A DNA stretch of 64,000 nt from Comamonadaceae bacterium (lineage in GTDB: Bacteria; Pseudomonadota; Gammaproteobacteria; Burkholderiales; Burkholderiaceae_C). Position numbers and translations under genes: made by a program. This document shows, in pieces, positions 2,810 to 53,948 of the stretch; position 1 is the stretch's first letter, and every line of letters starts with the position of its first letter. The DNA is taken from NCBI GenBank assembly GCA_013297985.1, contig JAAFIY010000004.1:16620-80619 (forward strand), given 5' to 3'. The notes under the pieces were generated by a model. The model was not told the DNA's origin. It searched no databases and saw only the letters and a program-made list of their open reading frames with translations.

Positions 2810-4270
2810 ATGCCTGAATCTTCTGCTTCGAAGTCGCTGACGGCCACCCTCGCCACCGCTGTTGCCACCGCGCTGGCCGCCGTGTTGGTGGCCGCGCCAG
2901 TTGTGGCGCAAGTCGCGCCCACCCCGGCCGCAAGTGGCAGCGCACCGACACCCGCCGGCGGCGCCGCACCTTCACTGCGGGTGACACCCTCCACCCAAAC
3001 CGTCACGCGCGCCGCGCGGCGCACCGACACCCGCGCCCCGCAAGCGGGCGACTACATCGTGGCCTTGGTCAATTCAGACCCGATTACCAACCACGAAGTG
3101 CGCACCCGCCTGGCTCGCGCCGAGCGCCAACTAGACGCCCAAGGCGATACCTCTTCACGCGACGACCGCCTGCGCCGCGTGCTTGATTTGCTGATTGAAG
3201 AGCGCGCCCAGGTGGCGCTGGCCAAAGAGCAGGGCATGCGCATTGAGGATTCATTGGTAGAGCAAGCCGAGCAAACTGTGGCCGCGCAGAACCAGATGAC
3301 GGTGCCCACTTTGCATGAGCGGCTGCGAGCTGACGGCATGCCGCTAGCCATCTTTCGCGACAACCTGCGCAACCAGCTCATGGTGCAGCGCTTGCGCGAA
3401 CGCGAGCTAGAAAGCCGAGTGCGCATGACAGAGGCCGAGGTAGATCAGGCCGTGCTCGATATGCGCAGCCAGCGTGTGGTGGTGGAGCCCGCCCAGGGCG
3501 AGCTGGCGCAGGTGCTGATTGAGGTACCCGAAAACGCCACCGCCGCCCAGCGCAACGCGCTGCGTGAGCGCGCCGAAACCGTGGCGCGCCGCGCCCGCTC
3601 GGGCGAAGACTTTGCGGCCTTGGTGCGCGAATTTTCCGACGGCGATCGCAGCAACGGCGGCAGCCTGGGCTTGCGCCCTGCGGAGCGTTTGCCCGAGCTG
3701 TTTGTGCGCGCAACCGATCAAACGCCTGCGGGTGGCGTGGCCGGGCCCGTGCAGTCGGGTGCGGGCTGGCACATCATCAAAGTGCTGCAGCGGGTTGAAG
3801 AAAAAACCGAAAGCGTGGGCACCACCGTGGCCCAAACCCGGGCGCGACACATCTTGCTGCGCGCCAGCCCCCGTTTGAGCGAAGCCGCTGCCCGCGAAAG
3901 GCTGGCCGACTTGCGCCGCCGCATCGACCGCGGAGAAGACTTCGCCGCGCTGGCCCGTGAGCTCAGCCAAGACCCGAGCGCAGCCAGTGGCGGCGAGCTC
4001 GGCTGGGTGAGTCCTGGGCAGTTTGTGCCTGAGTTTGAGGCGGTGATGGACACCTTGGACATCAACCAGATCAGCCCGCCAGTGGCATCGCGCTTTGGCC
4101 TGCACCTCATCCAAGTGCTAGAGCGCCGCGACGCCCCGCTGAGCGAACGTGAACAACGCAATTTGGCCCGCGCCGCGCTGCGCGAACGCAAGATTGAGCA
4201 GGCCTATACCGCTTGGGCGCAAGAGGTGCGCGGGCGGGCTTGGGTGGAACTGCGCGAGCCGCCGCAGTGA
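2810..4270 (+). CDS. surA: Periplasmic peptidyl-prolyl isomerase SurA
   Basis: Signal peptide, SurA N domain and two rotamase domains (ARHILLRAS..., [16 protein letters not shown]). ATG at 2810 preferred over the longer ORF start at 2720. Confidence 0.95.
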
Positions 4271-44205: not shown

Positions 44206-44895
44206 CTAGGCTGATGCCAAGGCAGCAGGCCACTTCAGCACGTGGCCGGTGTCGCGCTCAAAACGGGCCAGGTCGTCGGGCGTGTCGACGTCGATGGCGT
44301 AGCGCAAGTTGTCGGTGGGCCAGGCCAGCACTTGGCTGGCATGCGCGGCCTGCCATTGGCGGCAGCCCACGTTGGCGTCGCTTTGCAAAATGCGCTGGCA
44401 CACCTCGGCGCTGAAGATGACCGGGTTGCCGCGTTGCTCGCCTTGCGGGGTGCTCACCAGCGGATACACCACCTCAACGCCCTCGGGCCGTTTTTTGTAC
44501 GCGGCAATCAGCGCGGTGATGTCTTGCGCGTTGAGCATGGGCTGGTCGGCCAGTGCCACGATGACGGCGTCCAACTTGCCGGCCAGCGCGCCCAAGCCCA
44601 CCCGCTGCGACGACACCTGGCCCTCTTGCGGCTGCGGGTTGCGCACCAGGGTGACGGGAAACTCTTGCACCACGGGCTCAATGGCCTGGGCATGGTGGCC
44701 GGTGACCACCACCACCTCATCCACCCCGGCGCCCGACAGCGCAATCAAAGCCCGTCGAATCAGCGGGACGCCGCCCAGCTCCAATAGCGCCTTGGGGCGG
44801 TGCCCCATGCGCGAGGCCGAGCCCGCAGCCAGCAACACCGCGCCCACCACCAACCGGCTGTACAAACCGCCGCCACCTTTGAGCAAACAACCCAT
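44206..44895 (-). CDS. mocA: MobA-like nucleotidyltransferase (molybdenum cofactor cytidylyltransferase type)
   Basis: VVGAVLLAAGSASRMGHRPKALLELGGVPLIRRALIAL; last gene of the cox block. ORF track start 44955. Confidence 0.82.
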   Translation of the reverse strand: MGCLLKGGGGLYSRLVVGAVLLAAGSASRMGHRPKALLELGGVPLIRRALIALSGAGVDEVVVVTGHHAQAIEPVVQEFPVTLVRNPQPQEGQVSSQRVGLGALAGKLDAVIVALADQPMLNAQDITALIAAYKKRPEGVEVVYPLVSTPQGEQRGNPVIFSAEVCQRILQSDANVGCRQWQAAHASQVLAWPTDNLRYAIDVDTPDDLARFERDTGHVLKWPAALASA

Positions 44896-44902
44896 GATCG
44901 GC

Positions 44903-45796
44903 TCAGCCTGCGCAGCAAGAACGGGCGGCCGGTGCGGCAGCGGCTTGTGTGCCAAAACCGGCTGTTACGCCCTGTTTTACTGCCGAAACAGCTACAAAAT
45001 CAGTAGCAATGGCCTGTTCTGGCGGCGGTGCAGCGCGCCGCGCCTGCACCACGGCGGCCAAGATGCTCAAGGCCACCTCAGCCGGCGTGCGCGCCCCAAT
45101 GTCCAAACCCGCCGGGGCGGTGATGGCGTGCACCGCGTCGGCGCTCAGGCCGTCGGCAATCAGCCCCCGCTTGAGCACCATGGCCTTGCGCGCACTGGCC
45201 ACCAGCCAGATGTGGCGCGCACCGCTGGCCAGTGCTGTGCGCAGCGCTGCGGCGTCGCCCTGGCCTTGGGTGGCCACGACACACCAGCCGCCCTGCGGGA
45301 GGCGGCTGGCATCAGCCGCCACGGGCGTGACTGCCAAATCGATGTGGGGCGACAGGGCGGCCAGCGCTTGCGCCACCGGTGAATCACCCAGCACTACCAA
45401 TTGGGCGGCGGGCAGATAGGGCTCCACAAACAGCTCGGTGCTGCCGCCCGAGGGGCAGGTGGAATTGAACTGTGTCAGCTCATCGGCATCGGGCACATCG
45501 GGCTGCACGCGAATCACGCGGGGCACGCCGTCGGCCAAGGCTTGTTGAGCGCTTTTGAGCACCGCGCCGTGGGCGCAGCCGCCGCCGATCCAGCCGTGCA
45601 AAGTGCCGTCAGCCACCACCAGCGCTTTGTCGCCGGGCTTGGCGGCGGTGGGCGCTGAAGTGCGCAGCACCGTGACCATGGCAAAGGCGCGTTGCTCGCG
45701 CTGCCATTGGGCGGCCAGGGCCAGCAGGTCGTGGGCGCTTGGCTGGGCGCTAGGCTGGGCACTGGTAGGGCTCAGGGGCAGATCAGACAGGTTCAT
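44903..45796 (-). CDS. coxF: XdhC/CoxF-family maturation protein
   Basis: XdhC signatures GDKALVVADGTLHGWIGGGCAHGAVLKSA and LVVLGDSPVAQALAAL; position in cox cluster. Confidence 0.87.
   Translation of the reverse strand: MNLSDLPLSPTSAQPSAQPSAHDLLALAAQWQREQRAFAMVTVLRTSAPTAAKPGDKALVVADGTLHGWIGGGCAHGAVLKSAQQALADGVPRVIRVQPDVPDADELTQFNSTCPSGGSTELFVEPYLPAAQLVVLGDSPVAQALAALSPHIDLAVTPVAADASRLPQGGWCVVATQGQGDAAALRTALASGARHIWLVASARKAMVLKRGLIADGLSADAVHAITAPAGLDIGARTPAEVALSILAAVVQARRAAPPPEQAIATDFVAVSAVKQGVTAGFGTQAAAAPAARSCCAG
44959..45007 (-). repeat. Copy of the dispersed element, inside the 3' end of coxF/xdhC
   Basis: Minus strand GCTACTGATTTTGTAGCTGTTTCGGCAGTAAAACAGGGCGTAACAGCCGG. Confidence 0.75.
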
Positions 45797-45817
45797 CGCA
45801 ATGGCCTCCGCGGGCAT

Positions 45818-47137
45818 TCAGTTCAAGTAGCGCCCGGCTTCCGCCAGGTCGCTCAGTCGATTCAGCCGGACAAAACGCTGCACGCTGTCGTCGCGCCGCA
45901 CCGCTTGCATGGCTTGGGATTGGGGCGCCTCGTCGCTGGGGTGAAACCAGGTGATGCGCGCGCCACGCCCGCGCACGGCGGCCAACGCCGGGGCCAACTC
46001 GTCGGGCGGGTCGGCGTCAAAGCCATCAGACAGCACCCACACCCGCGCGCCCCGGCGCAACTGGCCGCGGGCATGGGTTTGCACAAAGTCGCGCAGCGCG
46101 GTGGCAATGCGGGTGCCGCCGCCAAACCCGGCGGTGACGGCGTTGACCTTTTCTTGCACCGCTGCGCTGTCGCTTTTGAGCAGCGGGGTGACTTCGGCCA
46201 GCCGAGTGTGAAAGATGAACACCCTCGCAAAGCCGCCGCCGCCAGTGCCTTGATGCAGCCGTGCGGTGACAAAGGCACGGGCAATGCGCAAAAACAGTTG
46301 CGCATGGGTTTCCATTGATCGGCTCACATCCACCAGCACAAACAAGCGCGGCGGCTCCGTGCGGGTGCGCACCCAGGCCGGGTGCAGCGGTACGCCGCCG
46401 GTGCGCAAACTGGCGCGCAAGGTGCGGCGCAAGTCCAGCCGGTGGCCGTCGGCCGCTGCATGCCAGCGCCGGGTGGGGCGCGGCCGCAGGCGCTGGGCGA
46501 TGCGCTCGGCCAACTGCTGCAGGCGGCTTAGGTCTTGTGGCAACCATTCATTAAAGCGTTTGTCGTGCAGCGCTTCGGTGCGGCTGGCGCCGCCTTGGGC
46601 GCGCGGGGCGCCTGCTTCATCGGCATCGGCGGCGTCAGGGGGCGGGGCGTCAAGGGCGGTGTCTAGGCCCGGGCGGGGCTGATCAGGCGCGGCTTGCGGG
46701 CCCGCAGCACCCAGTTGTTGCTGTAGGTGCTGCACCAGTTGGCGCATGTCGCGGGTGGGGCGAGCGAGGCCGCTGACGCGCACCGTGCCGCGCACCCGCT
46801 GGGGGTGCCAAAAGCGGTCAAACACATCGTCCCACTGCCGCCAGTCGCGCGCGCTGTGGCAAGCCACCGCCCGCCACGCGGCGCGCAAGGCCTGCGATTG
46901 GCTGGGCGGCAACAGGCAAGCAGCTTGTACCAAGGCTTGTTGTTCGGCCACGCCCACGGTAAAGCCGTGCTGGCGCAAGAGGTCGGCGAAACGGGCGACG
47001 GTGTGCAGCGGCTCGGCCAGCGTGGCCTCTGCCTGCGAGCCAGCACTTACATCAGCAGGTGCTGTGCGGTCGCAATGGCCGCCCGATGTAGGGGATGCGC
47101 TCAGCTCAGCGCGGCGGGGGTGCGGTCGGGCCTGCAT
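45818..47137 (-). CDS. coxE: CoxE-like VWA domain protein
   Basis: RLFVLVDVSRSMETHAQLFLRIARAF; RRGARVWVLSDGFDADPPDELAPAL. Confidence 0.9.
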   Translation of the reverse strand: MQARPHPRRAELSASPTSGGHCDRTAPADVSAGSQAEATLAEPLHTVARFADLLRQHGFTVGVAEQQALVQAACLLPPSQSQALRAAWRAVACHSARDWRQWDDVFDRFWHPQRVRGTVRVSGLARPTRDMRQLVQHLQQQLGAAGPQAAPDQPRPGLDTALDAPPPDAADADEAGAPRAQGGASRTEALHDKRFNEWLPQDLSRLQQLAERIAQRLRPRPTRRWHAAADGHRLDLRRTLRASLRTGGVPLHPAWVRTRTEPPRLFVLVDVSRSMETHAQLFLRIARAFVTARLHQGTGGGGFARVFIFHTRLAEVTPLLKSDSAAVQEKVNAVTAGFGGGTRIATALRDFVQTHARGQLRRGARVWVLSDGFDADPPDELAPALAAVRGRGARITWFHPSDEAPQSQAMQAVRRDDSVQRFVRLNRLSDLAEAGRYLN

Positions 47138-47164: not shown

Positions 47165-48175
47165 TCAGGCGCGGCTGGGCGGCGCGACCCGGGCGCCGCC
47201 CGACATGGCCGAAGGTGCCGCATCGGACGCCGCATCGGACGCCGCATCGGACGCCGAAGTGGATTGCACGCCCTTGATGGCCACGCCCTCGTGGCGGCGG
47301 CCTTCCAGCACCTGGCGCAGTTTGTCGGGGCCAAACTGAAAGCGGTCTTCGCGGGTTTTGAGCAGGCAGGCCAGGGTGTGGGTGAGAGCGTTGGGGTCGT
47401 CAGGCAGCTGCCGGAAGGCCAGCGCGTGCAGGGCCCGAATCCAGTCCAAGGTTTCGGCCACGCCCGGGGTTTTGCCCAAGTCTTCGCGGCGCAGGCGCTG
47501 CACAAAGGCCACGGCTTGCTCGACCAGCACGCTTTCGGCCTCGGGCAGCGTGGCCCGCACAATGGCTACCTCGCGCGCCAGCGTGGGGTAGTCCAGCCAG
47601 TGATACAAGGCGCGGCGACGCAGTGCGTCGCTCAGTTCACGGGTGCCGTTGCTGGTGAGCACGCACACCGGCACATGCTGGGCGCGCAGGGTGCCCAGCT
47701 CAGGCACGCTGATCTGCCAATCGGCCAGCAGCTCTAGCAAGTAGGCTTCAAAGCCTTCGTCAGCGCGGTCAATTTCGTCAATCAGCAGCACGCAGGGCTC
47801 GGGGCTGGTGATGGCGGCCAGCAGCGGGCGGGCCAGCAAATAGTCAGCGCCAAACAGGTCGGCCTCTTTCACCCGACCGGCGGGGTCGTTTTCACGCAGG
47901 CGGATGGCCATCAACTGGCGGCCGTAATTCCATTCATAAGCGGCCTGACTCAGGTCCAGCCCCTCGTGGCATTGCAGCCGCACCAGCTTGCGGCCGGTGG
48001 CTTGCGCCATGGCCACCGCCAGCGCGGTTTTGCCCACGCCCGCGTCGCCCTCCAACAGCAGCGGGCGCTTCAATTCGCCCGCCAGCCACAGCGTGGTGGC
48101 CAGCGCTTCATCAGCGATGTAGCCCGCCAGATGCAGCTGCTGGCGCAGGGCTTGGTCGGGGCTGGGGCTTGTCAT
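47165..48175 (-). CDS. coxD: CoxD-like MoxR AAA+ ATPase
   Basis: PLLLEGDAGVGKTALAVAMA; CVLLIDEIDRADEGFEAYLLELL. Confidence 0.9.
   Translation of the reverse strand: MTSPSPDQALRQQLHLAGYIADEALATTLWLAGELKRPLLLEGDAGVGKTALAVAMAQATGRKLVRLQCHEGLDLSQAAYEWNYGRQLMAIRLRENDPAGRVKEADLFGADYLLARPLLAAITSPEPCVLLIDEIDRADEGFEAYLLELLADWQISVPELGTLRAQHVPVCVLTSNGTRELSDALRRRALYHWLDYPTLAREVAIVRATLPEAESVLVEQAVAFVQRLRREDLGKTPGVAETLDWIRALHALAFRQLPDDPNALTHTLACLLKTREDRFQFGPDKLRQVLEGRRHEGVAIKGVQSTSASDAASDAASDAAPSAMSGGARVAPPSRA
47220..47255 (-). repeat. Three exact tandem 12-bp repeats in the coxD 3' end
   Basis: GCATCGGACGCC x3, encoding a (SDAA)n-type tail. Confidence 0.95.
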
Positions 48176-48189
48176 GTCAGCGCGCCGGA

Positions 48190-48843
48190 CTAGCTGGCCT
48201 TCTTGCCAAACAGGTTGGCAAACCAGCCCTTGATGACGATCCAGGCAATGGCCAGCACGTTGAGCTCTTTGACCGGCTGGGGCGCGGCTGGCGCCATCGC
48301 GCTGGGCGTAGCCGCTACGATTTCTGTAGCTGCTTGGGGCGTTAAATCGCCGGAAGCGGCCGATTCGGCACTTGCACTTTGGGGCGCAGGCACCGCGGCG
48401 GCGGCGGCGCGAAAGTTATCGGCAAACTGCGCCAGCATGGCGTCGCTCACCGGCACCAGCAGCCGGCTGCCAAATTGCGCCAGCTTGCCGCTCACCGTGA
48501 TGGTGGCCACACCCACCAGGGCGCAGGCGGTGGGGCCGGTGGGCTCCAGGTGCGCGGTGAGTTGCATGCTCGCGGAAGACCCACCTTTGTCGGCGCCCTT
48601 GCCCAGCATCATCAATTGCTTGGTGGCCACGTCTATGCCTTGCACCTCGATGTCGCCGGCAAACTGCATCACCGCTGGGCCCACTTTGCTTTTGACCGTG
48701 CCTTTGTAGTGGGTGTCGTCCACCTGCTCGGTGATCTGGGCACCGGGCATGCAGGCGGCGGTGGCGCGAATGTCTTGCAGCACCACCCAGCACTGCTCAG
48801 CACTGGCGGCGATGTCATAGCGTTTGTCGAGTTTGACTTCCAT
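48190..48843 (-). CDS. coxG: CoxG, SRPBCC-family carbon monoxide dehydrogenase subunit G
   Basis: CWVVLQDIRATAACMPGAQITEQVDDTHYKGTVKSKVGPAVMQFAGDIEV; C-terminal hydrophobic anchor. Confidence 0.92.
   Translation of the reverse strand: MEVKLDKRYDIAASAEQCWVVLQDIRATAACMPGAQITEQVDDTHYKGTVKSKVGPAVMQFAGDIEVQGIDVATKQLMMLGKGADKGGSSASMQLTAHLEPTGPTACALVGVATITVSGKLAQFGSRLLVPVSDAMLAQFADNFRAAAAAVPAPQSASAESAASGDLTPQAATEIVAATPSAMAPAAPQPVKELNVLAIAWIVIKGWFANLFGKKAS
48314..48360 (+). repeat. Copy of the dispersed element, inside the coxG linker
   Basis: GCTACGATTTCTGTAGCTGCTTGGGGCGTTAAATCGCCGGAAGCGGC. Confidence 0.7.
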
Positions 48844-48933: not shown

Positions 48934-51351
48934 TCAGCTCAGCGCCACGCCCGAGGCCTTCAATTGCTTCCACACATTCCAGGCGCTGTGCGGCATGGTC
49001 ATGTGCTTGACGCCCAGGTGGGCAAAGGCATCCACCACGGCGGAGGTGAAGGTGGGAATGCTGCCCACGTGCGGTGATTCGGCCACGCCCTTGGCACCAA
49101 TGGGGTGGTGCGGGCTGGGGGTGACGGTGTGGTCAGTCTCCCAGTGCGGCGTTTCCACAAAGGTGGGCAAAAAGTAGTCCATCAGCGTGTTGCCCAGCAG
49201 GTTGCCCTGCTTGTCAAACGGCATTTGCTGGCCCATGGCCACGGCGTAGCCTTCGGTCAGGCCGCCGTGGATCTGGCCTTCAATGATCATGGGGTTGATG
49301 CGGGTGCCGCAGTCATCCAAGGCATAAAAGCGCCGCACCTTGGTTTCACCCGTGCCACGGTCAATGTCCACCACGCACAAATAGATGCCAAAGGGGTAGG
49401 TGAAGTTGGGCGGGTCGTAGTAGTGCACCGCTTCCAGCCCCGGCTCCATGCCAGCGGGCAGGTTGTTGTAGCTGGCCCAGGCGATGTCTTTCATCGTCTT
49501 GTGCCGGCTGGCGTCACCCTTGACCTTGAAGCGGTCAATTTCCCAGTCCAGATCGTTCTCACCCACTTCCAAGAGGTGCGCCGCAATCTTGCGCGCCTTG
49601 GCGTGAATCTTCCGCGCTGCCAGCGCGATGGCCGCACCCGCCACCGGCGTGCTGCGGCTGCCATAGGTGCCCAGGCCATAGGGCGCGGTAGAGGTGTCGC
49701 CTTCTTCCACCTGAATCACTTCAGACGGAATGCCGATTTCGGTGGCGATGATCTGCGCGTAAGTGGTCTGGTGGCCCTGGCCTTGGGTGATGGTGCCCAT
49801 GCGCGCAATGGCACTGCCGGTGGGGTGCACGCGGATTTCGCAGCTATCAAACATGCCCACGCCCAAGATGTCGCACATCTTGCTGGGGCCTGCGCCCACC
49901 ACTTCGGTGAACGTCACCAGGCCAATGCCCATCAGCGTGGGGCTGTTGGGGTCGGCCCGCTTGGCGGCTTGCTCGGCGCGCAGGGCTTTGTAGTCACAGG
50001 CGTCCAGCACTTTTTGCAAGGCGGTGTGGTAGTCGCCGCTGTCGTACTCAAAGCCAAAGGCGCTCTTGTAGGGGAACTGTTCTTTTTTGATGAAGTTCTT
50101 GGCGCGAATCTCGGCCTTGTCCATACCCAACTTTTGCGCCAGCACGTCCACCATGCGCTCAATCAAATACACCGCTTCAGTCACCCGAAAGCTGCAGCGA
50201 TAGGCCACGCCACCCGGCGCTTTGTTGGTGTAGACGCCTTTGACGCTGGCATAGGCCGCCGCAATGTCATAGCTGCCGCTGACGATGTGAAACAGCCCGG
50301 CGGGGAACTTGGTGGGGTCGGCGCAGGCGTCAAAGGCGCCGTGGTCGGCGATCACATTTGTGCGCAGGGCCAAGATCTTGCCGTCAGCGGTGGCGGCGAT
50401 TTCGCCGTCCATGTGGTAGTCCCGCGCAAAGGCGGTGGAGCTGATGTTCTCAATGCGGTCTTCGACCCATTTCACCGGCTTGCCCAGCACGATGCTGGCC
50501 ACGATGGCGCACACATAGCCCGGGTAGATGCCCACTTTGTTACCAAAGCCGCCGCCAATGTCGGGGCTGACGATGCGCACTTTGCTCTCAGGAATGCCCG
50601 ACAACAAACTCACTACCGTGCGCACCACGTGGGGCGCCTGGCTGGTGATGTAAGTGGTGAGCTCGCCGCGCACCGGATCAAAGCTGGCCACGCAGCCGCA
50701 GGTTTCTAGCGGGCAGGGGTGCACGCGGGGATAGAAGATGCGCTCTTTCACCGTCACGGGGGCGGTGGCAAACACCGCGTCGGTGGCGGCCTTGTCGCCT
50801 GCATCCCAGGTGAAGATGTGGTTGTGGTGGTCGCGCGCGCCGTGGGCGCCGCTGGTTTTGCCAGCGAGGTCGTCGCGGATGACTGGGGCGTTAGGCTCAA
50901 GCGCCTCAAACGGGTCCATCACCACCGGCAGCTCTTCGACTTCAACAATGACCGCTTCCACGCCGTCGGCGGCGGCGTAGCGGTCAGTGGCAATCACCAC
51001 CGCCACTTCTTGCATCTGGAAGTGAATCTTCTCGTCGGCCAGCACCGCAGCCACGTCACCGGCCAGGGTGGGCATCCAGTGCAGCTTGAGGGGCTTTAAG
51101 TCATCCGCCGTCAGCACCGCGATGACGCCGGGCACTTTCAGCGCTTCGGACTTGTCGATCTTTTTGATGCGACCGTGCGCCACCTGGGCGCGCACGATGT
51201 CCATGTGCAGCATGCCGGGCATCTTGATGTCATCGACATAGTTGCCCTTGCCCTGAATAAAGCGGGCGTCTTCTTTGCGCAGGCGCGAATCGCCCATGCC
51301 TTGCAGCGCGGCTGTGCGCTCCAGCACTGAGGGATCAATCGGTGCATTCAT
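48934..51351 (-). CDS. coxL: Aerobic CO dehydrogenase large subunit, form I
   Basis: Molybdopterin-binding subunit with the form I active-site motif AYRCSFR (codons at 50185-50205). ATG at 51351; the longer ORF start at 51579 is unlikely. Confidence 0.93.
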   Translation of the reverse strand: MNAPIDPSVLERTAALQGMGDSRLRKEDARFIQGKGNYVDDIKMPGMLHMDIVRAQVAHGRIKKIDKSEALKVPGVIAVLTADDLKPLKLHWMPTLAGDVAAVLADEKIHFQMQEVAVVIATDRYAAADGVEAVIVEVEELPVVMDPFEALEPNAPVIRDDLAGKTSGAHGARDHHNHIFTWDAGDKAATDAVFATAPVTVKERIFYPRVHPCPLETCGCVASFDPVRGELTTYITSQAPHVVRTVVSLLSGIPESKVRIVSPDIGGGFGNKVGIYPGYVCAIVASIVLGKPVKWVEDRIENISSTAFARDYHMDGEIAATADGKILALRTNVIADHGAFDACADPTKFPAGLFHIVSGSYDIAAAYASVKGVYTNKAPGGVAYRCSFRVTEAVYLIERMVDVLAQKLGMDKAEIRAKNFIKKEQFPYKSAFGFEYDSGDYHTALQKVLDACDYKALRAEQAAKRADPNSPTLMGIGLVTFTEVVGAGPSKMCDILGVGMFDSCEIRVHPTGSAIARMGTITQGQGHQTTYAQIIATEIGIPSEVIQVEEGDTSTAPYGLGTYGSRSTPVAGAAIALAARKIHAKARKIAAHLLEVGENDLDWEIDRFKVKGDASRHKTMKDIAWASYNNLPAGMEPGLEAVHYYDPPNFTYPFGIYLCVVDIDRGTGETKVRRFYALDDCGTRINPMIIEGQIHGGLTEGYAVAMGQQMPFDKQGNLLGNTLMDYFLPTFVETPHWETDHTVTPSPHHPIGAKGVAESPHVGSIPTFTSAVVDAFAHLGVKHMTMPHSAWNVWKQLKASGVALS

Positions 51352-51392: not shown

Positions 51393-51878
51393 TCAGGCCG
51401 CGACGGGCTCGCGCAGCTTGGCGGCGGCGTACTGCACCGCTTTGACGATGTTTTGGTAGCCGGTGCAGCGGCACAAATTGCCCGCCATGCCGTGGCGGAT
51501 TTCTGATTCGGTGGGGTTGGGGTTGTCTTGCAAAAAGCGGTAGGCGCGCATCAGCATGCCGGGCGTGCAAAAGCCGCACTGCAGGCCGTGCTCTTTGTAA
51601 AAACCTTCTTGCACCGCATGCAGCACACCCGCGTTGGCCAGGCCTTCCACAGTCAGCACTTCAGAGCCTTCGCATTGCACCGCCAAGTGAGTGCATGCTT
51701 TCACTGATTGCCCGTCCACATCCACGGTGCAGGCACCGCAGTGGCTGGTTTCACAGCCGATGTGGGCACCGGTCAGGTTCATTTTTTCGCGCAGAAAATG
51801 AATCAGCAGGGTGCGCGGCTCTACCGCTTCTTCTACCGCTGCGCCATTGACTTTGAGGTTGACGATCTTCTTGGCCAT
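51393..51878 (-). CDS. coxS: Aerobic CO dehydrogenase small [2Fe-2S] subunit
   Basis: [21 protein letters not shown] and [11 protein letters not shown]...[13 protein letters not shown]. Confidence 0.95.
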
Positions 51879-51908: not shown

Positions 51909-52772
51909 TCAGGCGCAGCGCGCGGCTGCGGCTTTGATGGCGCGTTGCACCATCTGCCCGGCCATCGCGGTTTTGTATTCAATGTCGCCCCGCAGGTCTT
52001 CGGCGGGGTCGCACACTGCCATGGCGGCAGCGGCGGCGGCCTTGACGGATGCGTCAGTCACCGCTTGGCCGATCAAGGCTTTTTCAGCATCGGCGGCGCG
52101 GATGGCGGTGGGCGCCAGGTTGGTGAGTGCAATGCGGCACTCAGTGACTTTGCCGCCACTCATGCGCATGACCACTGCGGCGCCCGCCGTGGCCCAGTCG
52201 CCGGTTTTGCGCTTGAGTTTTTCATACGCCCAGCCGGTGCCGGGGGCGAAAAAGGGCACGCGGATGGCGGCCAGAATTTCGTCTTCAGCCAGCGCCGTGG
52301 CGTACAGACCCAGATAGAAACTGTCAGCCACCACATTGCGCCGCCCGCCGGGGCCCACCAGATCGAAGCTGGCATTGAGGGCAAGGGTCAAGGCGGGGTG
52401 GTCGTTGCCCGGGTCACCGTGGGCGATGTCGCCGCCAATCGTGCCGCGGTTGCGCACTTGCGGGTCAGCGATCAGTTTCGGCGCTTCGGCCAGCAACGGC
52501 ACGCGTTCGCGCAGGATGGATGACGCGATCAGGTCGTTTTCACTCGTCATGGCGCCAATCACCACCTGGGTGCCTTCTTCCCTGATGCCGCGCAGTTCGG
52601 CAATGCGGTTGAGGTCAATCAAATGCGCGGGCTGGGCAAAGCGCAGCTTCATCATGGGCAGCAGGCTGTGGCCGCCGGCCAGCCATTTGGCGTCGCTGCC
52701 CAGTTTGCCCATCAGCGCCAGTGCGTCGTTGACGCTGGTGGGGGCGTGGTAGTCGAAGGCGGGTGGGATCAT
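51909..52772 (-). CDS. coxM: Aerobic CO dehydrogenase medium FAD-binding subunit
   Basis: AKWLAGGHSLLPMMKLRFAQPAHLIDL; GTIGGDIAHGDPGNDHPAL. Confidence 0.94.
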   Translation of the reverse strand: MIPPAFDYHAPTSVNDALALMGKLGSDAKWLAGGHSLLPMMKLRFAQPAHLIDLNRIAELRGIREEGTQVVIGAMTSENDLIASSILRERVPLLAEAPKLIADPQVRNRGTIGGDIAHGDPGNDHPALTLALNASFDLVGPGGRRNVVADSFYLGLYATALAEDEILAAIRVPFFAPGTGWAYEKLKRKTGDWATAGAAVVMRMSGGKVTECRIALTNLAPTAIRAADAEKALIGQAVTDASVKAAAAAAMAVCDPAEDLRGDIEYKTAMAGQMVQRAIKAAAARCA

Positions 52773-52924
52773 CGGTGTCGCTCCTCGTTTTGGGGGTGTC
52801 GTGCGGTCTTTGGACGGGCTGGTCCAGACCGCATCGTGAGCCGATTGTGGGTAGGCCTTGCCAAGCGTGCTGAATGCGGGAATTGGCCGTGCCCGGCGCC
52901 GATGCAGGCCATCGGCACAAACCG

Positions 52925-52974
52925 TTCACGAATCGCCAAAGCGCTGCACGAACGGTAGAGTCACTGCACGAACT
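52925..52974 (-). promoter_or_regulatory. Three TTCGTG direct repeats at 20-bp intervals (candidate RcoM operator)
   Basis: CACGAA on the plus strand at 52927, 52947 and 52967 = TTCGTG on the minus strand, upstream of coxM. Confidence 0.75.
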
Positions 52975-53071
52975 GCTTGGTCGCGCAATGTCTGGGCGGT
53001 CATGCCGCGTAAACCCTTAAGGGAAAAACTGAGGCGGCGCCGCGTCTGCCGCGTCGGTAGCGCCCAACTCC

Positions 53072-53092: not shown

Positions 53093-53863
53093 CTAGGCCG
53101 TCACCGAAGGCCCGCTGCGCAGCCGATCCGTCACGGCCGATTGGCTGGTGCGCGACACCGGCACGCGCTCATCGCAGCCGTCCACCACCAGCCAGGTGCG
53201 CCCGGCTTCGCGCACCAATTGGCGCACCCGGCCCAAGTCCACCACCCAGGTGCGGTGCACCCGCATGAAGCGCTGGGCGTCGAGGCGCTTTTCCAGGTCG
53301 CCAATGCTGAGGTTGCAAAAGCGCGGGCCGTCGGGCGTCATCACCCGGCTGTAGTGGCCGTCGGAGTGAATGGCGCGGATGTCGGCCGCCTCCACAAACA
53401 CAATCGCGCCGCCGCTGCTGGTGGGAATGCGTTGCAACTGGCGCGGCTGGGCCTGGTCGGGCAGTGGCGCGCCGATGGATGCCGCGCCGCCGTCGGCGGC
53501 CACCACGTCGGTAATGTCATAGAACACCAGCACATAGCCCATCGGCTGGCGCTGGGCGTCGCTGCTGCGGGTGACCTTGATCAACAGCACCCGCTCGGGG
53601 ATGTTGATGATCATCGTCATGGGCGGCGGGTTGGTCACCGGGCACACGGCGGCTTGGTCCAGCATGAAAGCCACTTTGGGCTGGCTGCGCTCGGGGTGAA
53701 AGTTCAGCACCATCTGGCCAAAAGGCTGCTTGGCGTCCACCGGGAGCACCCGGCGGGCAAAGTCGTTCATGCTGACCACATTGCGCGCTTCGTCCAGCGT
53801 GACCACGCCGACTTCAAAGCGCTCCAGCAAATACAGCGGTGAAACCGGTTGCGCAGCGTTCAT
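53093..53863 (-). CDS. rcoM: RcoM-like CO-sensing regulator: PAS (heme) plus LytTR domain
   Basis: N-terminal PAS (EVGVVTLDEARNVVSMNDFARRVL...NFHPERSQPKVAFML) and C-terminal LytTR (IVFVEAADIRAIHSDGHYSRVMTPDG...RFMRVHRTWVVDLGRVRQL); adjacent to coxMSL. Confidence 0.87.
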   Translation of the reverse strand: MNAAQPVSPLYLLERFEVGVVTLDEARNVVSMNDFARRVLPVDAKQPFGQMVLNFHPERSQPKVAFMLDQAAVCPVTNPPPMTMIINIPERVLLIKVTRSSDAQRQPMGYVLVFYDITDVVAADGGAASIGAPLPDQAQPRQLQRIPTSSGGAIVFVEAADIRAIHSDGHYSRVMTPDGPRFCNLSIGDLEKRLDAQRFMRVHRTWVVDLGRVRQLVREAGRTWLVVDGCDERVPVSRTSQSAVTDRLRSGPSVTA

Positions 53864-53871
53864 GCGTAAAT

Positions 53872-53919
53872 GCTATCTTTTTTGAAGTGCTTGCGCCCTA
53901 TTTGAGGGCGCTGCAGCCC
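53872..53919 (+). repeat. Copy of the dispersed element, upstream of rcoM
   Basis: GCTATCTTTTTTGAAGTGCTTGCGCCCTATTTGAGGGCGCTGCAGCCC; second hairpin GCGCCC-TATTTGA-GGGCGC. Confidence 0.65.
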
Positions 53920-53948
53920 GATTTGTGGCCCGACTTGGGGGCAAGACC

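Follow-up and report, generated by a model that had tools for sequence, protein, structure and literature searches.

From the sequence, we are confident in predicting that three TTCGTG boxes upstream of coxM form the operator of the CO sensor-regulator RcoM, which is encoded immediately upstream. RcoM very probably switches on the CO-oxidation (cox) genes here. By analogy with published work on Paraburkholderia xenovorans, binding and activation would depend on CO. The boxes lie in the window (the whole 64-kb stretch of DNA that was analyzed), and they are a strong, well-conserved natural instance of an operator type that has already been described, rather than a new type. What carries the case is the full identity of the three TTCGTG boxes together with the comparative data.

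The cox gene cluster and its regulator

The genes of interest are on the minus strand, in the order rcoM, a 320-bp gap, coxM, coxS, coxL, coxG, coxD, and coxE:

53093..53863, minus strand: rcoM, PAS and LytTR CO sensor-regulator of 256 amino acids (Pfam PF04397, 9.3e-17; PAS_4, 8.3e-06; homolog alignment)
51909..52772, minus strand: coxM, FAD subunit of aerobic CO dehydrogenase (PF00941, PF03450)
51393..51878, minus strand: coxS, 2Fe-2S subunit (PF01799, PF00111)
48934..51351, minus strand: coxL, form I large subunit (TIGR02416, 1535.6 bits with a cutoff of 991; AYRCSFR motif in the translation)
48190..48843, minus strand: coxG (PF06240)
47165..48175, minus strand: coxD-like AAA ATPase (PF07728)
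45818..47137, minus strand: coxE, VWA protein (PF05762)

Judged by its family match and motif, CoxL is a true aerobic CO dehydrogenase large subunit. Genes for a MocA-like cytidylyltransferase (44206-44955) and an XdhC-like maturation protein (44903-45817) come after coxE on the same strand; they probably serve in assembling the cofactor of the CO dehydrogenase.

As its domains and its alignment show, the window protein is a member of the RcoM family. It has a PAS domain at the N terminus (PF08448/PF13596) and a LytTR domain at the C terminus (PF04397), with no MHYT match. In an alignment of 32 homologs, the signature residues H56 and M84 do not vary, and C74 is nearly invariant. The heme ligands of P. 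xenovorans RcoM are numbered His74, Cys94, and Met104, and in a Paraburkholderia-like homolog (L003), the corresponding offsets from the His are 20 (Cys) and 30 (Met), as in 74/94/104. (Titles in the reference list of PMC9670170 mention ligation by Met104 and Cys in P. xenovorans RcoM.) A search of PDB sequences with RcoM gave no match. In the organism's own genome, we found one RcoM and two other LytTR proteins.

Three TTCGTG boxes in the rcoM-coxM gap

A first-pass annotation of this DNA had reported CACGAA on the plus strand at 52927, 52947, and 52967, upstream of coxM. Both a reading of the sequence and a pattern scan confirmed these copies (52927-52932, 52947-52952, and 52967-52972), so that the minus strand has TTCGTG three times in 20-bp steps, within the gap between rcoM and coxM. 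We divide the site as follows:

52965..52972, minus strand: operator box 1 (promoter-distal), TTCGTGCA (from the sequence; leave-relatives-out score of 15.3 bits)
52945..52952, minus strand: operator box 2, TTCGTGCA (from the sequence; leave-relatives-out score of 17.5 bits)
52925..52932, minus strand: operator box 3 (promoter-proximal), TTCGTGAA (from the sequence; leave-relatives-out score of 12.1 bits)
52925..52978, minus strand: proposed RcoM operator, three direct repeats in 20-bp steps, with the 5' half-motif of box 1 counted in

Along the coding strand of the gap, the boxes and the bases before them read AAGCAG-TTCGTGCA, CTACCG-TTCGTGCA, and TGGCGA-TTCGTGAA, with successive steps of 20 bp. 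The sequence CTGCACGAAC is indeed common to copies 2 and 3, as the annotation had noted. Two of its other claims need to be qualified. The spacing of 20 bp is exact in the window but is not fixed, as relatives have 20 or 21 bp. Similarly, the boxes are nearly on one face of the DNA but not exactly on the same side, as a step of 20 bp makes 1.9 turns (10.5 bp each).

The boxes have the features described for RcoM operators: three direct TTnnnG or TTCnnGCA repeats (TTCGTGCA, TTCGTGCA, and TTCGTGAA), steps of 20-21 bp (here 20 and 20), and a location near rcoM and upstream of a CO-metabolism gene (here between rcoM and coxM). The proposal that TTCGTG fits the TTnnnG direct repeats of RcoM sites therefore stands, with all three TTnnnG cores intact. 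Kerby and Roberts reportedly gave an extended RcoM motif in 2012, CnnC(C/A)(G/A)TTCAnG, and the three boxes together match it at 21 of the 27 specified positions. After TTC, each window box has G where the extended motif has A.

Could such a triplet arise by chance? The exact spaced TTCGTG pattern matches the 64 kb once, and 100 shuffles gave no match. When the 320-bp gap was shuffled 5000 times, any hexamer occurring three times at an equal spacing of 18-24 bp was seen in 6 shuffles, and the looser TTnnnG triplet with 20- or 21-bp steps was seen in 38. TTnnnG alone is weak evidence because the window contains three such triplets and its shuffles contain 0-3. Given the exact pattern and the chance rates in the gap, the window by itself is suggestive, and it is the comparison with relatives that decides. 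Apart from the cox site, no TTCnnG triplet in the organism's genome consists of three identical TTCGTG boxes. TTCnnG triplets are at background genome-wide (4, vs. 9 in a reversed-pattern control), so we rejected the others as operators; only the cox site is convincing.

Conservation among rcoM-coxM loci

We detected rcoM in 36 of 400 genomes of the family and also in 80 named loci, including Rubrivivax, Azohydromonas, Piscinibacter, Variovorax, Limnohabitans, and Hydrogenophaga. Of 113 loci that matched rcoM, 108 have coxM in tandem with it (a count that includes duplicates). After removing duplicates, we compared 90 distinct rcoM-coxM gaps, mostly from Burkholderiales. TTC(A/G)TG is present on the coxM-ward strand in 89 of the 90 gaps and on the other strand in 9. 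The distances between pairs of TTC(A/G)TG are 21 bp (48 pairs), 20 bp (35 pairs), and 40-42 bp (16 pairs), and no other distance was seen more than twice; relatives use steps of 20 and 21 bp interchangeably. The strict TTnnnG triplet with 20- or 21-bp steps was found in 37 gaps in the forward orientation and in none in reverse, with a shuffle mean of 0.4.

We also scored each locus with a weight matrix that was built without that locus and its near relatives, and compared each locus to its own 20 shuffles. On the coxM-ward strand, all 90 gaps outscored their shuffles (median score of 30.2, vs. a median shuffle maximum of −0.8), and the window locus ranked 7th of 90 (score of 44.9). The first-pass annotation had proposed that its reading would fail if the repeats were not conserved upstream of coxM in relatives, and the reading survives this test. 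The third box scored above 8 in only 43 of the 90 loci and is weak in many relatives, which means that not every locus has three strong boxes.

The triplet probably does not autoregulate rcoM, because rcoM lies upstream of it in a tandem arrangement and is not itself preceded by an operator. Searching upstream of rcoM with the operator model gave nothing strong, except for two divergent loci where this region is the coxM promoter. Just before rcoM in the window is a dispersed repeat of about 55 bp (53866-53935, with 22 genome matches at E ≤ 0.001) that makes an accidental TTnnnG triplet. We rejected this triplet (53876, plus strand) as an operator, as it lies inside the repeat and its model score was only −2.6.

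The triplet associates with rcoM

The triplet associates with rcoM and not with coxM alone. There is no triplet upstream of coxM in form I cox loci from genomes without detected rcoM (G315, G536, and G416), where the scores (3.1, −17.4, and −7.2) were within or close to the range of the shuffles; this control set is three loci only, two of which are on short draft contigs. When RcoM is encoded beside other CO genes, the triplet is present in two of four loci. One of these is in an order-level relative (L004), where the boxes TTCGTGCA, TTCATGCA, and TTGGTGCA, with steps of 20 and 20 bp, lie between rcoM and cowN (NF033689, 89.7 bits). These two genes are divergent, the triplet between them (L004:2233-2280) is near-perfect, and CAGAAT is found 39 bp past box 3. 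The other is in a phylum-level relative (L161), which has TTCGGGTA, TTCGTGCG, and TTCGTGAA, also with steps of 20 and 20 bp, between rcoM and a cooF-cooS-like pair, with no cox genes. (The triplet is around position 3970 on the minus strand; the pair corresponds to an anaerobic CO dehydrogenase, and its gene names were assigned by reading the translations.) The remaining two loci (L160 and L162) are distant and have no strict TTnnnG triplet near a CO gene, so the rule that RcoM comes with a triplet is not universal at that distance. The RcoM homolog adjoins an anaerobic CO dehydrogenase in L160 and a CowN-like gene in L162.

On Paraburkholderia and Caballeronia plasmids, rcoM and coxM are divergent, and the region between them holds two separate triplets:

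L152, 2859 and 3857, minus strand: two triplets, with an OmpW-family gene in between
L153, 3772 and 3919, minus strand: two triplets

Promoter geometry and proposed mechanism

We did not find a sigma-70 consensus promoter in the 320-bp gap. Close relatives have (A/C)A(G/C)AAT in common downstream of the triplet, and the window counterpart is CACAAT:

52844..52849, minus strand: weak −10 candidate CACAAT, aligned with the hexamer of the relatives and located 83 bp past box 3

Because no consensus promoter was found, this assignment is tentative. Box 3 is 160 bp from the start of coxM. Across relatives, the −10 candidates are 37-83 bp downstream of box 3, and the 83 bp of the window is unusually long. 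In 57 representatives, the best −10-like hexamer is mostly 37-39 or 53-55 bp past box 3 (as in L014, L017, L021, and L028), and the single-position peaks are 12 and 8, vs. 5 for the largest peak in shuffles. An activator would be expected to bind upstream of the −35 region, and box 3 does lie there at these distances. Helical phasing of the box-to-promoter distance is suggestive only. For distances of at least 45 bp, the phasing is unlike shuffles (0 of 300), but we do not claim it, because the period does not resolve while the 53-55 bp cluster dominates and because the 37 class is out of phase. A tentative idea, which we think is somewhat unlikely, is that certain distances between the triplet and the coxM −10 are preferred (37-39 bp or 53-55 bp, and further ones around 64, 75, and 83) and that a single LytTR activator can work interchangeably in two geometries resembling class II and class I activation by CRP.

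We propose that, as in the P. xenovorans system, CO would bind the PAS heme of RcoM. Cooperative binding of the LytTR domain to the three repeats, on roughly one face of the DNA, would follow. Bound upstream of a poor coxM promoter, RcoM would recruit RNA polymerase, leading to transcription of coxMSL and the accessory cox genes.

Comparison with known LytTR operators

P. xenovorans LB400 reportedly has two protected regions, and the RcoM-1 step is said to be 21 on center. To our knowledge, the only footprinted RcoM regions are those of P. xenovorans. The window differs from RcoM-1 in that rcoM and coxM are in tandem with a single triplet between them; the divergent arrangement with two triplets was seen here in the Paraburkholderia and Caballeronia plasmids, not in the window. 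Also, the window step is exactly 20 bp twice, instead of the 21 given for RcoM-1. Otherwise, the systems are alike: both have three TTCnnGCA direct repeats with 12-13 bp gaps, a LytTR regulator for CO, and cox targets. The RcoM-1 operator of LB400 consists of three direct repeats of TTCNNGCA (TTCnnGCA) with gaps of 12-13 bp, or steps of 20-21 bp (PMC11347149, citing Kerby and Roberts 2012; Dent et al. 2022). The comparison with published RcoM operators that the first-pass annotation had called for thus comes out in its favor, as the boxes match the RcoM-1 consensus in both sequence and spacing.

In Afipia carboxidovorans OM5, the CoxC operator at PcoxB has three TTNNNGCN direct repeats with 18-21 bp steps, and CoxC is a membrane MHYT-LytTR repressor whose triplet overlaps the −35 box (PMC11347149). 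The window shares the three direct repeats, the steps of two helical turns, and the cox target with this system, which responds to CO. Unlike CoxC, the window regulator is PAS-LytTR, without an MHYT match, and the boxes are upstream of the promoter candidate (83 bp above the tentative −10) and not over the −35. Canonical LytTR sites, such as those of AgrA and AlgR, are also direct repeats about two turns apart that are read by LytTR domains, but they are pairs, whereas RcoM-type operators have three boxes.

Alternative explanations

That the boxes are a predicted RcoM operator, as the first-pass annotation had it, is supported by the PAS and LytTR neighbor, the consensus match, the conservation, and the association with rcoM. 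The boxes might instead be bound by one of the two other LytTR regulators in the genome or by some other factor. The genome does encode two further LytTR domains, and LytTR sites are broadly similar, but the triplet accompanies an adjacent rcoM in about 90 loci, is missing from the three cox loci in genomes without detected rcoM, and is present at two rcoM-adjacent loci without coxM nearby, which makes another regulator very unlikely. We give hardly any credence to a chance repeat or a piece of a repeat element: TTnnnG triplets do arise by chance (three in the window) and the neighboring dispersed repeat makes one of them, but exact TTCGTG triplets are rare, and the conserved orientation and spacing in relatives refute this explanation.

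RcoM could also bind these same boxes and repress cox until it binds CO, as the MHYT-LytTR protein CoxC does at PcoxB. CoxC does repress with a similar LytTR triplet (PMC11347149), but that triplet overlaps the −35, whereas here box 3 is 160 bp from the coxM start and 37-83 bp above the −10 candidates in relatives. Also, the gap has no consensus promoter, as expected for dependence on an activator, and RcoM1 is described in PMC11347149 as binding upstream of the −35 and activating. We consider repression by RcoM to be highly improbable and favor activation by RcoM.

Significance

The window adds a clean natural example of a predicted RcoM operator, with three identical TTCGTG cores. The roughly 90 orthologous predicted operators, mostly from Burkholderiales, lead to a tighter consensus, GC..TTCGTGCA, and these approximately 90 promoters could be used to test activation from a LytTR triplet at varied distances from the −10.
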